Source of the DNA: Lachnospiraceae bacterium
Lineage (GTDB): Bacteria > Bacillota > Clostridia > Lachnospirales > Lachnospiraceae
Length of the DNA stretch: 64,000 bases
Assembly: GCA_017553505.1 (NCBI GenBank)
Contig: JAFZLD010000015.1
Coordinates: 62,001-126,000, forward strand
Direction: 5' to 3'
Made by a program: the position numbers and the translations under genes. Shown here one piece after another: positions 1-9,607 of this stretch (its first letter is position 1; each line of letters begins with the position of its first letter). The notes below the pieces were generated by a model, which was not told where the DNA came from, did not search any database, and saw only the letters and a list, made by a program, of their open reading frames with translations.

Positions 1-624
1 GTGGGACCTACGGGTGTGGGCAAGACTACGCTTACGCAGCTTATTTCCAGATTCTATGAGCCTACTTCGGGCAGGATTCTGATAGATGGGCATGACATCA
101 AGGATGTGACGATTGAAAGCTTAAGGCAGAATATCTCGCCGGTGCTTCAGGATACGTTTCTTTTTAACGGAACCATCGCCGAGAACATCGGATACGCATA
201 TCCCGAGGCCGACCTTGATATGATTAAAGAAGCCGCTAAGATAGCCAATATTCACGAGGACATCCTTGCGATGCCTGACGGTTATGATACCGTTGTGGGC
301 GAGAGAGGATTGAGGCTGTCAGGCGGCCAGAAACAGCGAGTTTCGATAGCCCGTGCGATTCTTCGAAAGTCACCGATTATCATCCTTGATGAGGCGACAG
401 CTTCTGTTGACGTTGAGACAGAGCGTCAGATTCAGGATGCTATTACGGGAATTGTAGGCTCGCGTACTATCATAGCCATAGCACACCGGCTTTCCACCAT
501 CCGTAATGCTGACATGATTCTTGTAATAGAAGACGGCAAGATTACCGAGCAAGGTACCCACGAGGAACTGGTGGCGTTAGGCGGAAGCTATGCAAGGATG
601 AACAGGATACAGAGTAATTCGTAA
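1..624 (+). CDS. ABC exporter, ATP-binding C-terminal part (5' truncated by window edge)
   Basis: The nucleotide-binding domain of an exporter-type ABC protein; the upstream membrane domain lies outside the window. Seen: Walker A GPTGVGKTT at the very start, Q-loop region (SPVLQDTFLFNGTIAENI), signature LSGGQKQR, Walker B IIILDEAT and the H-loop in IAHRLST. The Q-loop context DTFLFNGTIAENI and the tail TEQGTHEEL are typical of half-transporter or MsbA/lipid/multidrug-type exporters fused to a TM domain. The first visible codon is GTG, but this is internal sequence, not a start. The substrate cannot be inferred. A partner half-transporter is probably just upstream. Confidence 0.93.
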   Translation: MGPTGVGKTTLTQLISRFYEPTSGRILIDGHDIKDVTIESLRQNISPVLQDTFLFNGTIAENIGYAYPEADLDMIKEAAKIANIHEDILAMPDGYDTVVGERGLRLSGGQKQRVSIARAILRKSPIIILDEATASVDVETERQIQDAITGIVGSRTIIAIAHRLSTIRNADMILVIEDGKITEQGTHEELVALGGSYARMNRIQSNS

Positions 625-646
625 CTAATTACAAATGATTTTGATT

Positions 647-685
647 TCAAGCCATGCGAAACGCTTGGCTTGATTTATATTACGT
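647..685 (+). terminator. Hairpin after ABC exporter gene, likely terminator
   Basis: Arms TCAAGCCA (647-654) and TGGCTTGA (666-673), with an inner GCG/CGC pair, are followed by a T-rich but imperfect tail (TTTATATT). It sits 23 nt after the stop codon. The terminating ability is uncertain because the U-tract is interrupted. Confidence 0.5.
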
Positions 686-789
686 CTTAGTGTATTCTGT
701 AACAGATATTTCTGTATGCTTTTTTCATATTCATGTGGCGACTATTCTGTCACGTTTTCACGAATTATTTGTTTTTTATGTACCTGTTG

Positions 790-1130
790 ACATGCGTAAG
801 TACGATTAGGTGGATTTAGCATGTCTTGATTTGAGTGGCGTAAGAGATTTATGCATGCGATAGAGTGTTCATGTTCGGTTGGCATGTCGTTTGGCAAGGT
901 AAATTTATCTAACAACGAAAGTCCTACATGCGAGAACGGAAATAGTTAGATTTCGCATGTAAGCTTATGCATGCGATAAGAGATTTGGCATCTATACATA
1001 TGTCGGAGTCAGAAAATGGACAGAAAATGCTACATGCGAGAATGCACTCGACGTCATATAGCATGTTAAGTCCACTAAAGGAAGAAAACGGCATACATGC
1101 GAAATGGTGGAGAGTATCTGTACGCATGTC
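790..1130 (+). repeat. Array of six 36-nt dyad units, RCATGCG-N22-GCATGTC
   Basis: Six units each begin with (A/G)CATGCG and end with GCATGTC or a close variant, with exactly 22 nt between the two 7-mers. Units are at 790-825, 853-888, 926-961, 969-1004, 1032-1067 and 1095-1130. The ends are ACATGC and GCATGT, which are reverse complements. In units 2 and 4 the first A is G, which would leave a G-U pair in RNA; unit 4 has the most degenerate right arm (ATATGTC). The 22-nt interiors differ in every unit. Unit starts are 63, 73, 43, 63 and 63 bp apart. The array ends 24 nt before the ribosome binding site of the nuclease-like gene. It is not a CRISPR: only 7-mers are conserved and the spacing between units varies. 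Function is unknown; it could be a multi-dyad protein-binding region or a multi-hairpin leader RNA. Confidence 0.85.
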
Positions 1131-1167
1131 TAATCGTCGATTGCATTACTGATTGGAGGATAGAAAT

Positions 1168-1965
1168 ATAAAAGATTACAGAGAAATGCTTAGTGAACAG
1201 TCAAAATGGCTGGATTCACTTCTTACTAAGACAGAAAAAAGCTTGAAAGTTAATAAAACTAAGGGTGATATTGCGCTGAGATTTTCAAAAAGAAACGGGC
1301 AGTATCAATACTACATAGAGGATGATACAGGAAAAAGGCAGTATATCAAGAAAAAAGATGTCAATATGGCAGCGAGAGTGGCACAACGAGATTACGATTT
1401 GGCGCTTAAGAAGACGTTGACTTCTCTTAGATACAGGCTGAACCAATTCATTAATCTCTATGACATCAGCATGGTAGAAGCAGAATATGATAACTTATCT
1501 GAGGCAAGGAAGAGATTGATAGTACCGGTAGTCGATACTGACAGCGATTATATTACAAAATGGATGACAGAACACAGGGGAGGGATGAATCCGTTTCCAA
1601 GAGAAGGGCAATACCTCACTGAACGTGGGGAACTGGTAAGGTCTAAGTCCGAGAAGATTTTAGCTGACCTCTTTAACAGGCATAGTATTCCGTATGTATA
1701 CGAGACGGGCTTTGAACTTGATAATGGGTATTATATTTATCCGGACTTTGCCCTCTTAAATGTCAAAGAAAGGAGAACGATATACTGGGAACACTTCGGA
1801 TTGGCATCGGACGGTGAATATTCAACTAAGGCTTTGCAGAAGTTAAGGCAATATGAGTCAGTTGGAATTGAGGTTGGCGTGGACTTGCTGTTTTCTGTTG
1901 AGGCTGAGAATATGCCTTTGGACGTGAAGAGTATAGAGAAGAAGATTATGAAATACCTGATATGA
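1168..1965 (+). CDS. PD-(D/E)XK-nuclease-like protein of unknown function
   Basis: About 265 aa, soluble. The N-terminal half is charged and helical (residues 1-110). The C-terminal half resembles a restriction-endonuclease fold: a helix with SKSEKILADLF (E162), then YPDFALLN (D193), then YWEHFG (E208), followed by a Lys-bearing helix. This order matches PD-(D/E)XK relatives appended to some UvrD-like helicases. The strict E-x-K is E-H-F here, so activity is not certain. Start choice is odd: a strong GGAGGA (1155-1160) is correctly spaced only to ATA at 1168. TTG at 1153 overlaps that site and ATG at 1186 is 25 nt away. It stands alone behind the dyad array. No methylase or helicase is adjacent. 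Confidence 0.7.
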   Translation: MKDYREMLSEQSKWLDSLLTKTEKSLKVNKTKGDIALRFSKRNGQYQYYIEDDTGKRQYIKKKDVNMAARVAQRDYDLALKKTLTSLRYRLNQFINLYDISMVEAEYDNLSEARKRLIVPVVDTDSDYITKWMTEHRGGMNPFPREGQYLTERGELVRSKSEKILADLFNRHSIPYVYETGFELDNGYYIYPDFALLNVKERRTIYWEHFGLASDGEYSTKALQKLRQYESVGIEVGVDLLFSVEAENMPLDVKSIEKKIMKYLI

Positions 1966-2025
1966 GAGCAGGGTAATATCTATATGGTAAAATAATAGAA
2001 ACATTGCCTTAATAGGAGAAAGCGT

Positions 2026-3036
2026 GTGACAACCCGATTTGACATTAAAAGAAACTGTATACAAACTATCAAAATCGCTCTTGCGGCTATAATAGCAATC
2101 CTCATAGCAGAGGCTCTGAGCCTGCAGTTTGCGGTCTCTGCAGGCATCGTGGCAATTCTTTCTGTAGCATTTACTAAGCGGGAGACCATACAGACTGCGG
2201 TTAACAGGTTCCTGGCTTTTGCGGTGGCACTGGTGATTGCGGCGGCGTGCTTCAATCTGATAGGGTATGACAGGTATGGGTTCTTTGCGTATCTTGTTCT
2301 TTTTATAGGTGTGTGCCGGTTTATGGGGTGGGACAATGCAATGGCCATGGATTCTGTGCTGATATCACATTTTCTAACGCTAAAGGCGATGGGTGCGACG
2401 GAACTGATCAATGAAATCGGGCTCTTCGTAATCGGCGTGGGAATCGGTATAGCGGCCAATCTTTTCATCAGGCCAAAGAAGGATTACATGGCCAAGATGA
2501 AGGATGAGACGGACGCGCTTATGAAGAAGGCGCTTCACAGAATGTCACTTAGAATCGTGAATCCGGCGATGGATGACTATGACGGCAGTTGTTTTATTAC
2601 GCTCAGAAAGACTCTCGATGAAGCCTCGGCACTGGCGCACCTTAATTACATGAATCAGTTAACTTCCCGAAATAAAGAAGACATTGAATATATCGCCATG
2701 CGCGAGGAACAGTCGGACACGTTATATGAAATATACAAGCATTTACGCGGGATTCAGACGGTTCCGAATACTGCAGAGATGTTGTCGAGGTTCTTTGAAA
2801 AAGTTTCGGTTGAGTATTCGATGGAGAATACCGTGGACGGGCTTATGGCGGAATATGACGAGCTTAACACTCACATGAAAGAGATGCCGTTACCCAAAGA
2901 TAGAGAAGAATTCGAGGACCGCGCGAGACTGTTTGCGGTGATGCGGGGGATAGGAGATTTGCTGTATATTAAACATATTTACGTTCTGAAAGCTGCCAAT
3001 CAACGCAACTTGAAGTTGCGCAAACTTCAAAAATAG
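2026..3036 (+). CDS. Aromatic acid exporter family (ArAE/FUSC-like) membrane protein
   Basis: 336 aa. Start is GTG at 2026, preceded by AGGAGA at 2013-2018. The N-terminal ~145 residues form about five hydrophobic segments (for example around IKIALAAIIAILIAEAL and FAVALVIAAACFNLIGY). A charged cytoplasmic C-terminal domain with helices follows (from about residue 150, KKDYMAKMKDETDALMKK). This is the layout of the Firmicute ArAE_1 plus ArAE_1_C family, assigned to the aromatic-acid/fusaric-acid resistance superfamily. The substrate is not known for this branch. It is monocistronic as far as can be seen. Confidence 0.85.
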   Translation: MTTRFDIKRNCIQTIKIALAAIIAILIAEALSLQFAVSAGIVAILSVAFTKRETIQTAVNRFLAFAVALVIAAACFNLIGYDRYGFFAYLVLFIGVCRFMGWDNAMAMDSVLISHFLTLKAMGATELINEIGLFVIGVGIGIAANLFIRPKKDYMAKMKDETDALMKKALHRMSLRIVNPAMDDYDGSCFITLRKTLDEASALAHLNYMNQLTSRNKEDIEYIAMREEQSDTLYEIYKHLRGIQTVPNTAEMLSRFFEKVSVEYSMENTVDGLMAEYDELNTHMKEMPLPKDREEFEDRARLFAVMRGIGDLLYIKHIYVLKAANQRNLKLRKLQK

Positions 3037-3131
3037 CACATCATGGTTGGTAGAGGGCTACAGCCTCTCATGTTAATCTATACTTGCGACGCGGAGCAGA
3101 CATCAAGCAAGACAGATTAAAGGAGACTATT

Positions 3132-3800
3132 ATGAGTTTTGGAAACAACCTTCAATATTTGCGCCAGTTAAGCGGTAACATGACCCAGGAGGATCTTGCT
3201 GAAAAGCTTAACGTAAGCCGCCAGACCATTTCCAAGTGGGAAATGGATACAGCCAATCCCGAGATGGACAAGGCTCTCGAACTTTGCAAGATTTTCAACT
3301 GTTCCCTCGACAATCTCTTCAGGGACGAGATGGACAAAAGAAACGATGCCTACTCAAACCTTCGAATAGAAACAGTGCCGGGATTTAAGTACGTAGAATA
3401 CACCGTAGTCAGCAAAGAGCCGGAAAGTGATGCTATCGGCAAGGTTAACGGATACGCCAAAGCAAACGGAGACAAATCCCCCAAGGTTATAGGCTGGGAT
3501 TTCCCAAACCTTTCGCAGGAGCAGATTAACGTATTCAACATGCACGGATATACTGCAGCATGGGTAGTGCCGGAAGGCCTCACGCCCGAGGGTCTCACGG
3601 TCAAAGAACAACCCGCGCACAAATATGCAGCGATTCACATCGAGCATCCCTTTGACAATCCATTTGTCACTATACCCGGAGCCTATAAGACCCTGAACGA
3701 TTTCATGAGAACCAATGGTCTTACATACTCGGAAGATGGCGTGATTCCGTGCTACGAGACAGACGGAGAAAGCATGGATGTCTACATAGCCTGCAAGTAA
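3132..3800 (+). CDS. XRE-family regulator with C-terminal GyrI-like effector domain
   Basis: 222 aa from ATG 3132 (AGGAG at 3121-3125). Residues 1-70 form an HTH_XRE domain: LRQLSGNMTQEDLAEKLNVS, then RQTISKWE as the recognition helix. The remaining ~150 residues contain GFKYVEYTVVSKEP and end with YETDGESMDVYIACK, resembling GyrI/AraC-effector-type ligand-binding domains. Such proteins are common Clostridial one-component regulators. The target is unknown; no obvious operator was found at its own promoter. An upstream reading to 3084 in the same frame lacks a ribosome binding site. Confidence 0.85.
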   Translation: MSFGNNLQYLRQLSGNMTQEDLAEKLNVSRQTISKWEMDTANPEMDKALELCKIFNCSLDNLFRDEMDKRNDAYSNLRIETVPGFKYVEYTVVSKEPESDAIGKVNGYAKANGDKSPKVIGWDFPNLSQEQINVFNMHGYTAAWVVPEGLTPEGLTVKEQPAHKYAAIHIEHPFDNPFVTIPGAYKTLNDFMRTNGLTYSEDGVIPCYETDGESMDVYIACK

Positions 3801-3856
3801 TAGGGTAACTAAGTGAACTAACGGTTCATTTTCAAAGAGAATAATGCAGTGTATGA

Positions 3857-3892
3857 TTCCCTTGTGAGCATTGCGCTCATGAGGGAATTTTT
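3857..3892 (+). terminator. Intrinsic terminator after XRE regulator
   Basis: Arms TTCCCTTGTGAGC and GCTCATGAGGGAA (11 of 13 paired plus G-U) with a 5-nt loop, followed by TTTTT. It separates the regulator from the NUDIX operon. Confidence 0.85.
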
Positions 3893-3957
3893 GTGTGTGA
3901 GCGCGGATGATGTGGTATTATTGATTCAATGAGTTATTGGGAGGGAGTACGAGTTAA

Positions 3958-4485
3958 ATGGAACAAGAATTGTACTTGGAACTTGAAGACAAAGAGTGGC
4001 CTTTCACCTTTACGGACCACGACAGAAACATCGCCAGAGGTATAGTATTTGACGACGCAGGTAATTTCTATTTCGTGCGGGCTGAGCGTGATGATGATTT
4101 TGGAAGAGCGACGCTTATAGAGACTGCAGGCGGTGGCGTGGAGCCGGGCGAAGAACTTAATGAGGCAATTAAGCGCGAGTTAAATGAAGAACTCGGTGCC
4201 GAGGTTGAAGTTGTATGTAAAATCGGTGTGGTAAGTGACTACTACAATCTTATACATCGCCACAATATCAATAATTATTTCTTGTGCAGGGCGGTTTCTT
4301 TTGGCGAGAAGCACCTTATGCCGGATGAGATAGAGGATTTCCATTTATCGACACTCAAATTTTCATATGATGAGGCGATGGCGGAGTACGAGCTTAGAAG
4401 AGAGACGCCTATCGGAAGGCTGATTGCGAACAGGGAGATGCCGATTCTTAAGAGGGCGCACGAGATTTTAAAGGGTATGGAGTAA
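3958..4485 (+). CDS. NUDIX hydrolase
   Basis: 175 aa. The NUDIX box is complete: GGGVEPGEELNEAIKRELNEE followed by LG, matching GX5EX7REUXEEXGU. It hydrolyses a nucleoside-diphosphate-linked substrate that cannot be named from sequence. ATG 3958 is preceded by GGGAGGGAG. It begins a tightly packed series with the APH-like kinase (5 nt downstream), a HAD phosphatase and a GNAT protein. That series suggests a small-molecule modification or housecleaning operon rather than one pathway. Confidence 0.9.
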   Translation: MEQELYLELEDKEWPFTFTDHDRNIARGIVFDDAGNFYFVRAERDDDFGRATLIETAGGGVEPGEELNEAIKRELNEELGAEVEVVCKIGVVSDYYNLIHRHNINNYFLCRAVSFGEKHLMPDEIEDFHLSTLKFSYDEAMAEYELRRETPIGRLIANREMPILKRAHEILKGME

Positions 4486-4489
4486 TAAA

Positions 4490-5407
4490 ATGTTTGAAGA
4501 CATTAAATCAAGCGTGAACTGGGCGTCTGTGGAACCTGTCACCAAGGGCTGGTCGGACGATAAGAAGTACCTGGTGACTACCAAGGCGGGAGAGCGATTG
4601 CTTCTCAGAATTTCGGACGCTTCACAGTATGACCTCAAGGCCAAAGAATACGCGATTATCACGAAGTACGCTTCGACAGGCATAAAGATGTCCGGGCCGA
4701 TAGAGTTCGGAACCTGCGACGGCGGCAAGAGCGTTTATATTCTGCTTACGTGGCTTGAAGGCGAGGATTTGGAGGACGTTCTTCCGAGACTTTCCGAGGG
4801 TGAGCAGTATCTTCTCGGCAGGCAGGCGGGAGAGATTTTAAGAAAGATTCACTCGATTCCTCTTGATGAGGCAGACCTTCCCAAGAATACGAAGAAAGAG
4901 AAGAAACTCTTCCAGTTATCGCACTATGAAGAGTCGAACGTGCGCATATCAGGCGACGAAACGGCCATTAAATATGTCAGAGACAATATCGACGAAATCT
5001 GGAAAGTGCCCGCAGTGTACCAGCACGGCGATTTTCATCCCGGGAACCTGATATATTCGGGGGACAGCACCATCGGTGTTATTGATTTTAACAGATGGGA
5101 AGTGGGCGACCCTTATGAAGAATTCTATAAGCTGGAAAGCTTCGGAACAGAGCTGAGCGTGCCCTATTGCATCGGACAGATCGACGCGTACTTTCAGGGT
5201 GGCATTCCGGAAGGCTTCTGGAAGGCCAATGCGGTGTATGTGGCCCACGCTTCTTTATTTTCCATCAAGTGGGCGGAGAAGTTCGGGCAGGAGGACATTG
5301 ACGGTATGGTAAGGCGCGCGAGGGCTGCTTTTGCTGACTTTGACGGGTTCAATTCGTATGTGCCGAAGTGGTACACGGATGAGTACAGTAAGGAATACGA
5401 CGCGTAA
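4490..5407 (+). CDS. Aminoglycoside phosphotransferase (APH)-family kinase
   Basis: 305 aa. Catalytic loop YQHGDFHPGNLIY (HGDxxxxN) and metal-binding GVIDFNRWEVGDP are typical of the APH/choline-kinase-like fold. In the N-lobe, YLVTTKAGERLLLRISD supplies the ATP-binding Lys/Arg strand. It lies 5 nt after the NUDIX stop, so the two are translationally coupled. The family includes antibiotic kinases, but chromosomal Clostridial members of this type usually have unknown substrates. A resistance function should not be assumed. Confidence 0.87.
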   Translation: MFEDIKSSVNWASVEPVTKGWSDDKKYLVTTKAGERLLLRISDASQYDLKAKEYAIITKYASTGIKMSGPIEFGTCDGGKSVYILLTWLEGEDLEDVLPRLSEGEQYLLGRQAGEILRKIHSIPLDEADLPKNTKKEKKLFQLSHYEESNVRISGDETAIKYVRDNIDEIWKVPAVYQHGDFHPGNLIYSGDSTIGVIDFNRWEVGDPYEEFYKLESFGTELSVPYCIGQIDAYFQGGIPEGFWKANAVYVAHASLFSIKWAEKFGQEDIDGMVRRARAAFADFDGFNSYVPKWYTDEYSKEYDA

Positions 5408-5427
5408 CAGCGCGGTTGGGGAGATAT

Positions 5428-6270
5428 ATGGGTAAAACACTTTACGTTACCGACTTAGACGGTACGCTTCTTAACAGACAGGACAAAATCAGTCCTTTCA
5501 GCATCGAAACCATCAATAAACTGGTGGAGGAAGGCATGCTTTTTACGTATGCCACCGCCAGGTCTTTGGTGTCTGCGTCCGTAGTGACCAAGGGGCTCAG
5601 CACTAAAATTCCCGTGATTGCATATAACGGAGCCTTTATCATTCAGCCCTCCACCGGAGAGATTCTCGCCAAAGAAGACTTCACGGACGAAGAAAGAACC
5701 TATGCAAGGCGGATTATCGGTGAGCATGGAGTGAGTCCGATGGTGTATTCTTTTGTGAACGGAGTCGAGAAGGTTTCGTGGATTCCGGAGCGGGAGAATG
5801 ACGGTGTGAAGCGATATTTAAACGTGCGCCCGGGGGATAAGAGATTTCGTGCGGTGCATGACGATGAGGCGCTTTATGAGGGCGAGGTATTCTATTACAC
5901 CTGCATAGGGGAGCGTGAGGAACTGCAGCCGATTTACGACGTTTTGTCCGCGGATAGTCGCTACCGTGTTACGCTTCAGCAGGAACTTTATCGGCCGGAG
6001 TATTGGTGCGAGATTATGCCGGCCCGGGCTTCGAAGTCCCATGCAATTGCAAGGTTTAAGGAGATGTGCGGGTGCGACAGGGTGATTTCTTTTGGCGATG
6101 CCGCCAATGACATACCCATGTTTGAAATTTCCGACGAATGCTACGCGGTGGAGAATGCCGTGGATGCGTTAAAGGCCGTAGCCACAGGGATTATTGCGGG
6201 TAACGATGACGACGGCGTGGCGAAGTGGCTTATCGAGAAGCTGGGAAACAAGGAGTTTAAGGGCAAATGA
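5428..6270 (+). CDS. Cof-type HAD-IIB sugar-phosphate phosphatase
   Basis: 280 aa. Motif I VTDLDGTLLN (nucleophile Asp), motif II around TYATARS, a basic motif III and motif IV SFGDAANDIPMF place it in HAD subfamily IIB (Cof). ATG 5428 is chosen with GGGGAGA at 5418-5424; an in-frame TTG at 5416 overlaps that site. Known family members dephosphorylate sugar phosphates or pyridoxal phosphate. It overlaps the next gene by 4 nt (ATGA). Confidence 0.9.
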   Translation: MGKTLYVTDLDGTLLNRQDKISPFSIETINKLVEEGMLFTYATARSLVSASVVTKGLSTKIPVIAYNGAFIIQPSTGEILAKEDFTDEERTYARRIIGEHGVSPMVYSFVNGVEKVSWIPERENDGVKRYLNVRPGDKRFRAVHDDEALYEGEVFYYTCIGEREELQPIYDVLSADSRYRVTLQQELYRPEYWCEIMPARASKSHAIARFKEMCGCDRVISFGDAANDIPMFEISDECYAVENAVDALKAVATGIIAGNDDDGVAKWLIEKLGNKEFKGK

Positions 6271-6836
6271 GCAAAGTTGAATTATATGTACCGAAGCTTG
6301 AAGAGCTTTGGTTCTACGAAAAAATGATGGGCGACCCGGATACAATGTCGTACAACGCGCACTACGATCTGGGCTTCAAAGAATATCACGACGATACGGG
6401 ATGTATCGATTTTCCGCGTGAGCAGTGGGATGAGTGGTATGCCGACTGGGTGGGGCAGGAGCCGAAGCGTTTCTACGCCTACATTAAGGATGCCGAAACC
6501 GGCGAGTGGGTAGGAGACGTGAACTTCCACAAGAGTTACGGCGGCGATTGGTATGACATGGGAATCGTGCTGTATGCGCCTTTTCGCGGGCGTGGGTACT
6601 CGGCGCCGGCTTTGAGGCTGATGCTTGCGCACGCTTTTGAAGCGTGTGGTGTTGCTGAGATTCACAATGATTTTGAGGTGACGCGCGAGGCGGCCTTGAA
6701 GACGCATCTGGCGGTAGGTTTCAAGGAAGCAGGCGTTACGGACGGTGTTGTTACGCTGGTGATGACCAAAGAAGATTTTGAGGCAAATAGGCAACAGGAT
6801 GGCCTTGACAAACAGAACATATGTTTGCTACAATAA
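6267..6836 (+). CDS. GNAT-family N-acetyltransferase
   Basis: 189 aa. GNAT features: WVGDVNFHK beta-strands, the acetyl-CoA loop region around LYAPFRGRGYSAPALRL (Q/RxxGxG/A-like) and the late ALKTHLAVGFKEAG. The start overlaps the HAD gene stop (ATGA), so it is the last gene of that operon. The last ~20 codons overlap a promoter for the next gene (6805-6834). Substrate unknown. Confidence 0.85.
   Translation: MSKVELYVPKLEELWFYEKMMGDPDTMSYNAHYDLGFKEYHDDTGCIDFPREQWDEWYADWVGQEPKRFYAYIKDAETGEWVGDVNFHKSYGGDWYDMGIVLYAPFRGRGYSAPALRLMLAHAFEACGVAEIHNDFEVTREAALKTHLAVGFKEAGVTDGVVTLVMTKEDFEANRQQDGLDKQNICLLQ
6805..6834 (+). promoter_or_regulatory. Sigma-A-type promoter for RidA-like gene
   Basis: TTGACA (6805-6810), 18-nt spacer, TACAAT (6829-6834). 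It lies inside the 3' end of the GNAT gene, 37 nt before the RidA-like start. Confidence 0.75.
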
Positions 6837-6870
6837 TTGCATTGAAAGCAGTTATGAGGAGGTCATTGAT

Positions 6871-7239
6871 ATGAGTGGTATTGAGAGATTTGATGTTAGC
6901 GAAGAGTGGGCACACTCCGGGATTATTAAGGCAGGAGATTTCTACTTTTTAAGCTACTGTGTAGGTAATATCGGTCAGCCTGTGGAGGCTCAGATTAACG
7001 GAGCTATCGACCAGATGGAGTCAAGGCTTAAGATGGTTGGCTTGACGCTTGAGAACGTAGTGCAGATGGATTGCTTATTCCGTGACGTTTGGAACATTCC
7101 GATTATGGAGAAGGTTATTAAAGAGCGTTTTAACGGCAAGTATCCTGTGAGAAAGTCTATTCAGACAGAGTTTGCTCATGTGGGCGGTAAGGATGGTTTG
7201 CAGTTCCAGCTGGATGGGGTTGCTTACGCAGGGAAATAG
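6871..7239 (+). CDS. RidA/YjgF-family protein
   Basis: 122 aa from ATG 6871 with a strong GAGGAGG at 6856-6862. An in-frame ATG at 6778 lies within the preceding gene and upstream of the promoter, so it is rejected. The length and the AQINGAIDQMESRLK and LTLENVVQMDCLFRDV segments match the YjgF/YER057c/UK114 fold. Canonical RidA deaminates reactive enamines/imines with a conserved Arg near the C-terminus. Here PVRKSIQTEF is the equivalent segment and its Arg may serve. Divergent members are not all deaminases. Confidence 0.8.
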   Translation: MSGIERFDVSEEWAHSGIIKAGDFYFLSYCVGNIGQPVEAQINGAIDQMESRLKMVGLTLENVVQMDCLFRDVWNIPIMEKVIKERFNGKYPVRKSIQTEFAHVGGKDGLQFQLDGVAYAGK

Positions 7240-7290
7240 TGCGGATTACAAATTATTGGAATTGAATATAATGAATAAACAAACAAAATT

Positions 7291-7327
7291 ATTTGATTGC
7301 ATTTAGACAAATCACACACAATCAAAT
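7291..7327. promoter_or_regulatory. Inverted repeat, candidate operator upstream of the peptide gene
   Basis: Perfect 9-bp arms ATTTGATTG (7291-7299) and CAATCAAAT (7319-7327), separated by 19 bp. A further TTGATTGATGCAT occurs at about 7349. The rest of 7240-7425 is AT-rich with no gene. The regulator is unknown. Confidence 0.5.
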
Positions 7328-7425
7328 CTATCAAACCTGTTAGATTAATTGATTGATGCATATTATTTTGCTACTCTGATAGCACCAGAAATCATTTCCC
7401 ACAACAAGCGCGAGGAGGAAGCAAG

Positions 7426-7632
7426 ATGAAGAAATGGAATAATCCCGATGTAGAAGTATTAGTACTTTCTGCAACAGCTAACGGCAAGCTTAAGCACAAG
7501 AATGAAGGTATCGATGGTGTTGATGCACACGGCGAGTACAATAAGTACATCAACAAGAATGGTACAGGCTTATTTACACCGCCTACCACAGATTCCGGAG
7601 ATCCCGAAGATCCTGTTGAGAACAACTCATAA
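7426..7632 (+). CDS. Short RiPP-like precursor peptide (lasso-type leader)
   Basis: 68 aa, preceded by a strong GAGGAGG about 10 nt upstream. The N-terminus MKKWNNPDVEVLVLSATA follows the W-x-x-P-x-V-E-V-L pattern of Firmicute (paeninodin-like) lasso leaders. The remainder is polar, Gly/Asp/Asn-rich and has no Cys. If the conserved leader Thr is at -2, the core would start at Asn19-Gly20 and Glu27 would be residue 9, a permitted ring acceptor. The ~50-residue remainder is far longer than usual lasso cores, so a second cleavage or another chemistry is possible. An intrinsic terminator separates it from the cyclase-like gene, as expected for an abundantly expressed precursor. Confidence 0.6.
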   Translation: MKKWNNPDVEVLVLSATANGKLKHKNEGIDGVDAHGEYNKYINKNGTGLFTPPTTDSGDPEDPVENNS

Positions 7633-7643
7633 TAGCTTTAGCA

Positions 7644-7676
7644 AAAGGCCTTGCCGATTGTGGCAAGGCCTTTTTA
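7644..7676 (+). terminator. Intrinsic terminator/attenuator between peptide and cyclase-like gene
   Basis: Arms AAAGGCCTTGCC and GGCAAGGCCTTTT with a short loop, followed by T5. It probably permits partial read-through into the downstream synthetase gene. Confidence 0.88.
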
Positions 7677-7717
7677 TAATTATATTATCTGATATAAGCG
7701 TTAATAGGTGACACGAT

Positions 7718-9607
7718 ATGAGTGCTATATTTGGGTGCTTAACAGTTGAAAATACAGAATGCAATGCCGAAAGTATGCTTCCTTGGAACAGGCCTTATGG
7801 GACTGCCGGAGAAGCTGTGTTTTCATGCGGCGAGGCATCACTTGGATGCTGTGTAGAGAACCTTTCGAGCGGACATGTTCAGACGGAGTCTGTTGTCGGA
7901 AACGGGAATATACATGCGGTAATAGACGCATTGCTTTATAATCGCGAGGAACTTATTGCCAAGTGCGGAACGAGCGAAGGGATTTCCGATGCCGAATTGT
8001 TGCTTGAGTATATTAGCAAGTTCGGGTGTCGGGCGCTTAAAGCTGTTAACGGAGATTTTGCCGGTGCCATTTATGACGATAAGAATCATACACTTACGTT
8101 ATTCAGAGACCACATGGGCATCAGACCATTATATGTGTATTGTAATGGCAGAACAATTGCTTTTTCCACCGATATCAGAGGGTTGATTGCACTTCCGATT
8201 GTTACAACCGGGATTAGTGAAGAGTGGATATACAGAACGGTGGCGGGATACGATACCGATACGTTACTGGTAACACCTTATGAAAATATAGAGTGCGTTT
8301 CACCGGCTTCTGTCATGATATTTTCTTTGGCAGGGGACGAAATAAAGTCTTCAACATCGGAATACTGGAAGCTTGGGAGTCGAAAGATTAAGAAAGACTC
8401 AGATTCGGAATACATTACGGAACTTAGAAATATCATCACGGATGCTGTCACTCGCAGGCTTAACGCTGTGTCGGGTATCGTTGGAGCGGAAATGTCCGGC
8501 GGATTGGATTCAAGCGTGATTGATGTTCTTATTAATCGGGCAGGGCGAGATTGTATATATTATTCATGGTCCAAGGATCCTTCGGAGGTAGAGTATGCCG
8601 ATCGGGACGAGCGCCTGATTATTGAGGAGATTTGCAAACAGGAGCATATTACTTGCAACTTTTCCCATTTGGGCGATACATACGAGGAAGGGGTGGCTGA
8701 GGTATCGCGGAAGGTCGGTATCAATGTATCGGAAGCCGGTTCGGGAGACTTCAGATTTGCCTTTCCGCCCGGTTCCAACACTTACCAGATTATCTATGCA
8801 TCCCAATTTGTGAAAAGTAAGGGCGCGAATGTTATATTTACCGGACACGGCGGCGATGAAGGAGTAAGCCATCGCAGCAACATTTATGAGATGTATGCGC
8901 ATCACGAATATTACCGATATTTGCACTATCTTTGGTCGGTTACGAGAGGAAAGAGCAGAATTTTCCGTACACTGAAAAAAGGCTTGACCAATATTGCCGA
9001 GTCAAAGAAGAGTCTTAAGGAGACTTATCTTAACTGGTTTGAGTCACCGGAACTTCTCAAGGAAGACTTCGCCCGTCAATTTAGGATTAAGCAAGAAAGC
9101 GCACTACTGTTTGAATTCGACCCAATAGGATATATTAAGAGTGGCGGAAGCCGCAACAGACTTGATAACATGGCACTCTTCGGGGCGTACAGCGGTGTGA
9201 GATACCTGGTACCGTTTCTCGATTACAGGGTTATTGATTATGCTGTATCCATTCCACGATACATGTACGCGTACAAGGGCATAAAGAGATATATATACCG
9301 GGAGGCTTTCAAGGATATTATTCCCAAATCCCTGTATAAGCTTAATGACAAAGAAGACATGAGCTTAAGAAACATCCCGGTCAGAGATAATTGGCAGGAT
9401 GAATATGCTTTAAGGAAGAGGGAAATCATCGAAGGACTCAATCGTGAGTATTGGAGCAAATATCTTGATTTTAGTATGCTTGATGAACATTTATCAAAAG
9501 GATATCCGACCGAAGAGGAGTACGATGCCGAGATGCGTCATCTGAAAGTAGCCTTAAAATGTGCACTGGCTCAGAATCTTTTAGATAAGGCCAAGAAAAC
9601 TTGTTAA
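7718..9607 (+). CDS. Asparagine-synthetase-like ATP-dependent amide ligase (putative RiPP macrolactam synthetase)
   Basis: 629 aa. The N-terminal Ntn-like domain (1-~200) has RDHMGIRPLYV as in class-II glutamine amidotransferases. It starts MSAIFGC, so the catalytic Cys normally exposed after Met is Ser. The C-terminal ATP-pyrophosphatase domain has the PP-loop MSGGLDSSV and TGHGGDEG. Loss of the glutaminase Cys is typical of lasso-peptide cyclases (McjC-like) and of other AsnB paralogs that use no ammonia. The adjacent precursor-like peptide supports a RiPP role. No transglutaminase-like protease (B protein), RRE (PqqD-like) or exporter gene is next to it, so a complete lasso pathway is not present here. 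Confidence 0.75.
   Translation: MSAIFGCLTVENTECNAESMLPWNRPYGTAGEAVFSCGEASLGCCVENLSSGHVQTESVVGNGNIHAVIDALLYNREELIAKCGTSEGISDAELLLEYISKFGCRALKAVNGDFAGAIYDDKNHTLTLFRDHMGIRPLYVYCNGRTIAFSTDIRGLIALPIVTTGISEEWIYRTVAGYDTDTLLVTPYENIECVSPASVMIFSLAGDEIKSSTSEYWKLGSRKIKKDSDSEYITELRNIITDAVTRRLNAVSGIVGAEMSGGLDSSVIDVLINRAGRDCIYYSWSKDPSEVEYADRDERLIIEEICKQEHITCNFSHLGDTYEEGVAEVSRKVGINVSEAGSGDFRFAFPPGSNTYQIIYASQFVKSKGANVIFTGHGGDEGVSHRSNIYEMYAHHEYYRYLHYLWSVTRGKSRIFRTLKKGLTNIAESKKSLKETYLNWFESPELLKEDFARQFRIKQESALLFEFDPIGYIKSGGSRNRLDNMALFGAYSGVRYLVPFLDYRVIDYAVSIPRYMYAYKGIKRYIYREAFKDIIPKSLYKLNDKEDMSLRNIPVRDNWQDEYALRKREIIEGLNREYWSKYLDFSMLDEHLSKGYPTEEEYDAEMRHLKVALKCALAQNLLDKAKKTC

Follow-up and report, generated by a model that had tools for sequence, protein, structure and literature searches.

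The closest described systems are the REPtrons and TIGR-Tas. As described in PMC8266576 and PMC3116915, REPtrons, which pair a TnpA-REP (RAYT) enzyme with REP, REPIN or BIME sequences, mostly have one enzyme gene, with adjoining cognate palindromic repeats and dispersed intergenic copies, and enzyme and repeats co-evolve. For TIGR-Tas, PMC12045711 describes an array beside a single effector, with a 36-nt unit and repeats that are constant within a locus and differ between loci. The window analysed here is a stretch of 64,000 nucleotides from a Lachnospiraceae bacterium (assembly GCA_017553505.1, contig JAFZLD010000015.1, positions 62,001 to 126,000 of the forward strand). Close to its beginning it carries an array of inverted units followed by a gene coding for a nuclease-like protein, with the following features in window coordinates.

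789..1130, no strand assigned: six-unit dyad array, arms (G)RCATGCG and CGCATGT(C), interior 21-22 bp, linkers 8-38 bp
790..824, no strand assigned: array unit 1, exact pattern match
853..887, no strand assigned: array unit 2, left arm GCATGCG, exact pattern match
926..960, no strand assigned: array unit 3, an 8-bp dyad, exact pattern match
969..1003, no strand assigned: array unit 4, right arm degenerate, two mismatches
1032..1066, no strand assigned: array unit 5, exact pattern match
1095..1129, no strand assigned: array unit 6, exact pattern match
1155..1159, + strand: GGAGG, similar to a ribosome-binding site, between array and gene (by eye)
1168..1965, + strand: gene for the nuclease-like protein associated with the array (265 aa), probably starting at ATA
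1168..1590, + strand: N-terminal half, the proposed DNA-binding half; no known domain found, compared with the arms in a Mantel test
1591..1956, + strand: C-terminal PD-(D/E)XK-type domain, residues 142-263 matching PDC-S68
1651-1653, 1744-1746 and 1789-1791, + strand: invariant E162, D193 and E208 (80/80 aligned members)

The units are 35 bp long and start at 790, 853, 926, 969, 1032 and 1095, giving start distances of 63, 73, 43, 63 and 63 bp (approximately 4, 6 or 7 turns of about 10.5 bp). The preliminary description of this locus had reported six regular dyad units with an interior of constant length, and their existence was confirmed by a search for RCATGCG-N22-GCATGT with up to two mismatches on both strands of the window, which gave 13 matches, 11 of them inside the array, versus a mean of 2.65 and a largest value of 8 in 100 shuffles. 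On the + strand five of the six units match exactly, the exception being unit 4 (969) with its degenerate right arm. The pairing of 8 bp in unit 3 and 7 bp in unit 6 reported there was also recovered by eye. From the end of unit 6 to the likely gene start at 1168 there are 38 bp. This start is an ATA located 8 bp past the GGAGG, with the next in-frame ATG at 1186, and the alternative TTG at 1153 overlaps the GGAGG and lacks a ribosome-binding site of its own (by eye in both cases). The close relative Lachnospiraceae bacterium YSD2013 (L010) has ATA at the position equivalent to 1168, and several homologues start near the same residue with ATG or GTG, some of these starts being chosen by script. 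GTG or TTG starts were apparent in several other homologues, and L021 possibly has an ATA start too. The upstream array and the non-ATG starts of some members suggest limited expression. The gene neighbours in the window (by eye) are an ABC transporter and a FUSC-like gene, and no transposase was noted by eye beside the gene. Elsewhere in the window (7426-9607), a small peptide ORF is followed by an asparagine-synthase-like protein (7718-9607), a pair that we take to be reminiscent of a lasso-peptide cluster.

A total of 152 homologue places were collected, and 137 were kept after removing 10 near-duplicates and 5 with less than 300 bp upstream. Using a strict detector (at least three dyads with the same arms and one constant gap, within 800 bp upstream), an array was found upstream of 87 of the 137 homologues versus 12 of the 601 windows taken as controls at these loci, and 8 of these 12 positive controls were further copies of the local array. 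A relaxed detector (K=6) added 17 of the 50 negatives, against 19 of the 601 controls, raising the count to 104/137, although chance may account for one or two of these calls. The preliminary description had proposed scanning the upstream regions of homologues; the array plan does recur there in the numbers just given, and is missing by both detectors in 33 of the 137, including L008 and L009 from the window's own genome. Its suspicion that array and protein form one system is supported by the excess over controls, together with an arm sequence that tracks the protein (see below). The common plan consists of two inverted arms, a constant interior and a variable linker, and in most arrays the arm centres are 28-33 bp apart. 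The distance from array end to gene start has a median of 102 bp, being at most 100 bp in 42/87 and at most 200 bp in 64/87 (starts chosen by script). The arms themselves vary between homologues (GACACG, TACCGC, ACGTGA, TACGGA, GGCGAAG, GTACCCC, etc.). In the window's genome, the strict detector reports arrays for L002, L003, L005 and L007, and the loosest one adds L004; the array of L006 was recognised only by eye (two units by script). Arrays with the same arms also occur downstream of the nuclease gene in L085, L124, L132 and L144, where the gene is flanked on both sides in a cassette-like arrangement. At L135 the sole array found sits downstream of the gene. The diverged array-free paralogues L008 and L009 share a near-identical leader, CTCATCTCGGAATCCCGTGTCGGGAATCCG, about 50-110 bp upstream, after promoter-like sequence.

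Unit spacings cluster at 51-55, 61-65, 71-75, 83-86, 92-96, 102-107 and 125-129 bp. The best period was 10.55-10.6 bp, with R of 0.81 for the 161 spacings distinct within their array and 0.885 for the 87 modal spacings, versus maxima of 0.28 and 0.37 respectively in 5000 jittered null sets. When one array per protein cluster was taken (30 clusters, at most 40% identity) R was 0.87 at 10.6 bp. The near-whole-turn spacing pointed out in the preliminary description is therefore a property of the 87 homologue arrays and not of the window alone. Since 10.55-10.6 bp is the helical repeat of B-DNA, we read the functional form of the array as duplex DNA with its units on one face, and the phasing favours duplex DNA bound on one face over a guide RNA. 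A transcribed array yielding hairpin or guide RNAs in the manner of TIGR or CRISPR would fit the 35-40 nt unit, the adjoining effector-like gene and a folding somewhat above shuffles (z -1.81, with 4 of 100 shuffles as good), but against it stand the 10.6-bp phasing, the arm mismatches (G-U 101 versus A-C 83, p 0.21, with 196 others), the lack of a Nop domain and of any Rfam match for the array, and the lack of an exact viral-contig match for the four of the six window interiors that were searched. We consider it extremely unlikely, and the RNA guidance entertained in the preliminary description was not supported. Arm mismatches across arrays have no significant RNA-strand bias. RNA hairpins were rejected on the G-U counts, Rfam and the fold score, and captured spacers on the four interiors.

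No convincing relative by sequence of the window protein or its family was found in Pfam, NCBIfam or PDB. The C-terminal ~120 residues match the nuclease end of the PADLOC model PDC-S68 in all 80 members scanned; PDC-S69 was matched by 52/80 and HEAT_CxxC_PDDEXK by 42/80, with weak matches to AbiGi (2), Csx1 (1) and LmuB (1). In a PHROG scan a minority of members match phage endonuclease or resolvase families. The acidic E-D-E triad of the restriction-endonuclease-like core is invariant in 80/80 members (numbering from 1168), and we take E162, D193 and E208 to be the catalytic residues. The canonical lysine of the E-X-K motif is missing, the sequence being E208-H209-F-G211 (E-H-F-G, and E-D-E-H-F-G for the whole motif). 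With its invariant acidic residues and its matches to nuclease-family profiles, the family classifies as a PD-(D/E)XK-type nuclease of putative activity. Any resemblance of the N-terminal half to integrase arm-binding domains is at best tentative. Profile searches with the window protein gave no Cas match; an orphan-methyltransferase model was matched weakly (E 0.0036), and no methyltransferase was noticed by eye among the ORFs of positions 1-8000.

Relatives at E <= 1e-10 were present in 130 of 397 Lachnospiraceae genomes, and the window's genome has nine family members. In a sample of the phylum 17 of 398 genomes gave a match; all five full-length matches belong to Lachnospiraceae and the remaining 12 start at model position 75 or later, mostly within longer open frames. 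Ten plasmid matches were found, one of them covering more than 80% of the query, and they mostly involve the C-terminal part inside larger proteins. The viral_contigs scan, which reaches close relatives only, produced 0 confirmed relatives, and phage records gave three low-identity matches, the best being an unverified 4.2-kb faecal clone. On these viral and phage counts a phage origin of the family was rejected.

Arm similarity between arrays stays at background (4.8-5.0) below 45% protein identity and rises to 6.2 at 45-50%, 7.2 at 50-60% and 9.8 at 60-90%. The Mantel correlation of arms and protein was 0.07, above all 500 permutations, and it is small because most pairs are distant. It was carried more by the N-terminal half: when the protein was divided at the RSKSEK motif, none of 300 permutations was as high for the N-terminal half and 13 of 300 were for the C-terminal nuclease half. 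Pairs from the same genome (n=31) mostly had unrelated arms, with a mean arm similarity of 5.07 (background 5.02), and pairs from different genomes with at least 50% protein identity (n=75) one of 7.77. Very similar arms (scores of 13.25 and 12.2) were found in two of the 31 same-genome pairs, L043/L139 (G156) and L108/L116 (G297). Their proteins are only 27-30% identical, and at that level a score of 12 is reached by 0.8% of all pairs. This likeness could be due to array exchange, chance or a shared reader; either the rule of one protein and one arm is broken in these two cases or arrays have been exchanged. TAC/GTA appears within the arms of 49 of the 87 arrays (shuffled mean 20, maximum 34), as if one protein family reads variants of a common half-site. 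Arrays and genes are linked, so shared descent yields part of the co-divergence, and linkage alone could be behind that part.

Of four arms searched genome-wide, three have dispersed intergenic copies. In the window's genome (G000) the window arms form three further arrays: C13 precedes a tautomerase-like gene, and a GNAT-like gene follows each of C22a and C22b (names by eye). Their spacings are 63-63-43-63-63, 63-63-43-53-62 and 63-63-43 versus 63-73-43-63-63 in the window; the geometry is retained, although most interior sequence has diverged. A gap-free alignment of C13 with C22b extends over 225 bp at 64%, as expected of diverged copies. In G282, a genome in a single contig, a search for GTACCCC-N24-GGGGTAC that allowed two mismatches gave 67 forward matches and the control pattern 0, all 67 falling in the stretches examined as multi-unit arrays of 94-bp period (93-95) or isolated units. 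Besides the array at the nuclease gene there are 13 multi-unit arrays, of which 8 lie in convergent gaps (one by eye), 5 in tandem and 0 in divergent ones, versus 5 convergent, 29 tandem and 9 divergent among array-free gaps of at least 50 bp in the same stretches (8/13 versus 5/43 convergent, Fisher p 0.0007). This count excludes six isolated units (2 convergent, 4 tandem). In G236 units with the same arms occur at four further places. The GGCGAAGT arm of the paralogue L005 has no site in its own genome beyond its own gene, so dispersal is not universal. No family gene was found beside the trans arrays in the stretches examined, the only one there being the known gene in L215. The occurrence of the same arrays equally often next to unrelated genes had been named in the preliminary description as something that would speak against the link of array and protein. 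Arrays next to unrelated genes do exist, but they carry the arms of the nuclease of the same genome and are therefore read as its further targets.

In the G282 arrays (L197-L212) the 56-bp linkers have a weak motif in common (ATATGTTGT, or alternatively its complement) that seems to orient each array. Three isolated single units of the same contig (G282:C1 14676, 273253 and 293659, in L197, L201 and L202) are similar to each other over ~56 bp downstream and unlike the array linkers, and are perhaps another type of repeat that shares the dyad. No dnaA was noticed at the start of this contig (L213).

At the C22a site the relatives G397 and G803 have colinear flanks, with the 402 bp that include the array replaced by 18 bp. 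As both give the same coordinates, they are probably one strain. G397 retains C13. The pieces flanking C22b map ~4.5 kb apart and in another order. In G792, whose FUSC-like gene is 92% identical, other DNA replaces nuclease and array. The FUSC-like genes of G206 and G805 are more distant, and neither nuclease nor array is present in the stretches around them. A transposon-like target-site duplication was sought at four elements and rejected in the absence of a convincing case, the longest shared word being 9 bp at one of them, overlapping a ribosome-binding site and not seen in the array-free site of the relative; loss is therefore as possible as gain. Between the window and L010 there are 5 differences in 84 arm positions, 11/126 in interiors and 11/130 in linkers, and in the close comparison of C13 the figures are 1/70, 2/105 and 1/92, with 13/253 in the flanks. 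On these alignments the arms do not appear clearly more conserved than the interiors over this short divergence. In unit 3 of L010 both arms changed together, to ACATGCA/TGCATGT.

The explanation that we prefer, and on balance regard as somewhat probable, is a REPtron-like partnership between an enzyme gene and dispersed cognate repeats, built with an unrelated nuclease and with helically phased duplex sites. The array, its phasing, the co-divergence of arms and protein, the dispersal and one array-free site in a relative are observed; we infer from them that the family protein is the binder, that it binds as a dimer and cuts, that cutting mobilises the arrays and that the gene regulates itself. 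Each family member would be the dedicated binder of one dyad sequence, with one dimer per unit placed on the two inverted arms, and the units on the same face of the duplex would allow several dimers to come together in a single cooperative complex. Expression of the protein would probably be limited by the main array upstream of its gene. Some genomes carry the same element at other intergenic places as well, and the nuclease, by cutting at or between bound units, would let arrays spread, expand or convert. The "recognition array for the protein" is thus the best of the three ideas offered in the preliminary description; RNA guidance is not supported, and same-arm arrays also occur away from the nuclease gene. 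A broader proposal is that this PD-(D/E)XK-type family represents a new class of genetic element, an analogue of the REPtrons with an origin independent of HUH transposases. The family would have radiated into many protein-array pairs; in each pair the protein would read a specific arm code of 7-9 bp on one face of the duplex and would copy or maintain its array both beside the cognate gene and at sites dispersed over the chromosome. This we put forward tentatively, at somewhat less than an even chance.

The alternative with most in its favour is that the array is an autoregulatory operator and the protein a repressor of nuclease fold with a small regulon, any nuclease activity acting elsewhere. 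The main array is upstream of its own gene (median of 102 bp to the start in 87 arrays), the trans arrays of the window's genome precede two GNAT-like genes and a tautomerase-like gene, and the GGCGAAGT arm is confined to its own gene within its genome. As all trans arrays of G000 are upstream of genes, a regulon stays alive as a reading there. In G282, however, the trans arrays are convergent in 8 of 13 cases and divergent in none (5/43 convergent for array-free gaps), that is, largely away from promoters, which argues against a plain regulon in that genome and for REP-like repeats maintained by the protein; the arrays downstream of the nuclease gene at L085, L124, L132 and L144 also speak against operators. 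All considered, we find this alternative unlikely, though deserving of serious attention. Another reading is that the protein is a nucleoid protein bound to chromosome-organising or boundary sites, which would agree with the dispersal of phased sites in G282 and with the many that lie at convergent gene ends there. This is a very unlikely reading considering the few sites for the searched arms in G000 and G236, the patchy presence of the gene, the several arms per genome and the array-free site in a relative.

The relationship of the nuclease domain with the candidate defence proteins PDC-S68 (80/80) and PDC-S69 (52/80) and the patchy distribution with multiple paralogues would also agree with sequestration, in which the arrays keep a potentially harmful nuclease inactive on the chromosome and release it upon infection or DNA damage. 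With viral links as weak as 0 confirmed relatives in a viral_contigs scan for close relatives and three low-identity phage records, we judge this defence role distinctly improbable. It is very unlikely that the arms are bound by another host protein, with the nuclease gene as a mere frequent neighbour. The trans arrays without an adjoining family gene and the two pairs of same-genome paralogues with similar arms go in that direction, but most array-bearing paralogues of one genome have their own arms and as many other binders would be needed.

The lack of fit to known array types pointed out in the preliminary description holds for the types tested, CRISPR, REP/REPIN and TIGR. The system shares with REPtrons the cognate palindromic repeats beside the gene (87/137 homologues) and the dispersed intergenic copies (three of the four arms searched). 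The differences are that the protein is of PD-(D/E)XK type and not HUH, with no Y1 transposase in the Pfam scan of 80 members and PADLOC/PHROG matches mostly of nuclease type; that the compact palindrome tagged with GTAG/CGTC is absent, the arms being ~7-9 bp and ~22 bp apart (GRCATGCG in the window); and that spacing is set by the duplex helix, with several arms per genome. REPtron substrates are single-stranded hairpins, and the duplex phasing seen here would speak against a single-stranded substrate. With TIGR-Tas it has in common the layout of array and effector, but there is no Nop family in the Pfam matches of the 80 members at E 0.01, no alternation of edge and loop repeats with short spacers, and the evidence favours DNA over RNA. 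Unlike the direct repeats with unique spacers of CRISPR-Cas, the arms are inverted, the interiors resemble each other between units in several arrays, and Csx1 was matched weakly in only 1 of 80 members. The C-terminal nuclease domain is shared with the PADLOC candidate defence proteins PDC-S68 and PDC-S69; the PDC-S68 models, for which no paper was found in the open-access PMC literature, are ~1200 aa, whereas here the domain is joined to a different and short N-terminal half in a gene with an array. Operator arrays in helical phase, and transposon ends that contain several binding sites, present repeated sites on a single face of the DNA, where proteins assemble cooperatively. The one-face arrangement is similar here, and what differs is that the arm sequence changes between homologues. 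No description that we recognised as this array-nuclease system was found in open-access PMC (subscription papers and preprints being outside this search), and considering also the differences from each of these systems the partnership looks like a new kind. If so, the 87 to 104 protein/target-site pairs of the sample would be a source for learning a recognition code, the phasing kept while the sequence varies would make cooperative assembly on DNA directly testable, the paralogues within one cell would provide a ready test of orthogonality, and the system would represent a second, independent solution to the REP/RAYT design.
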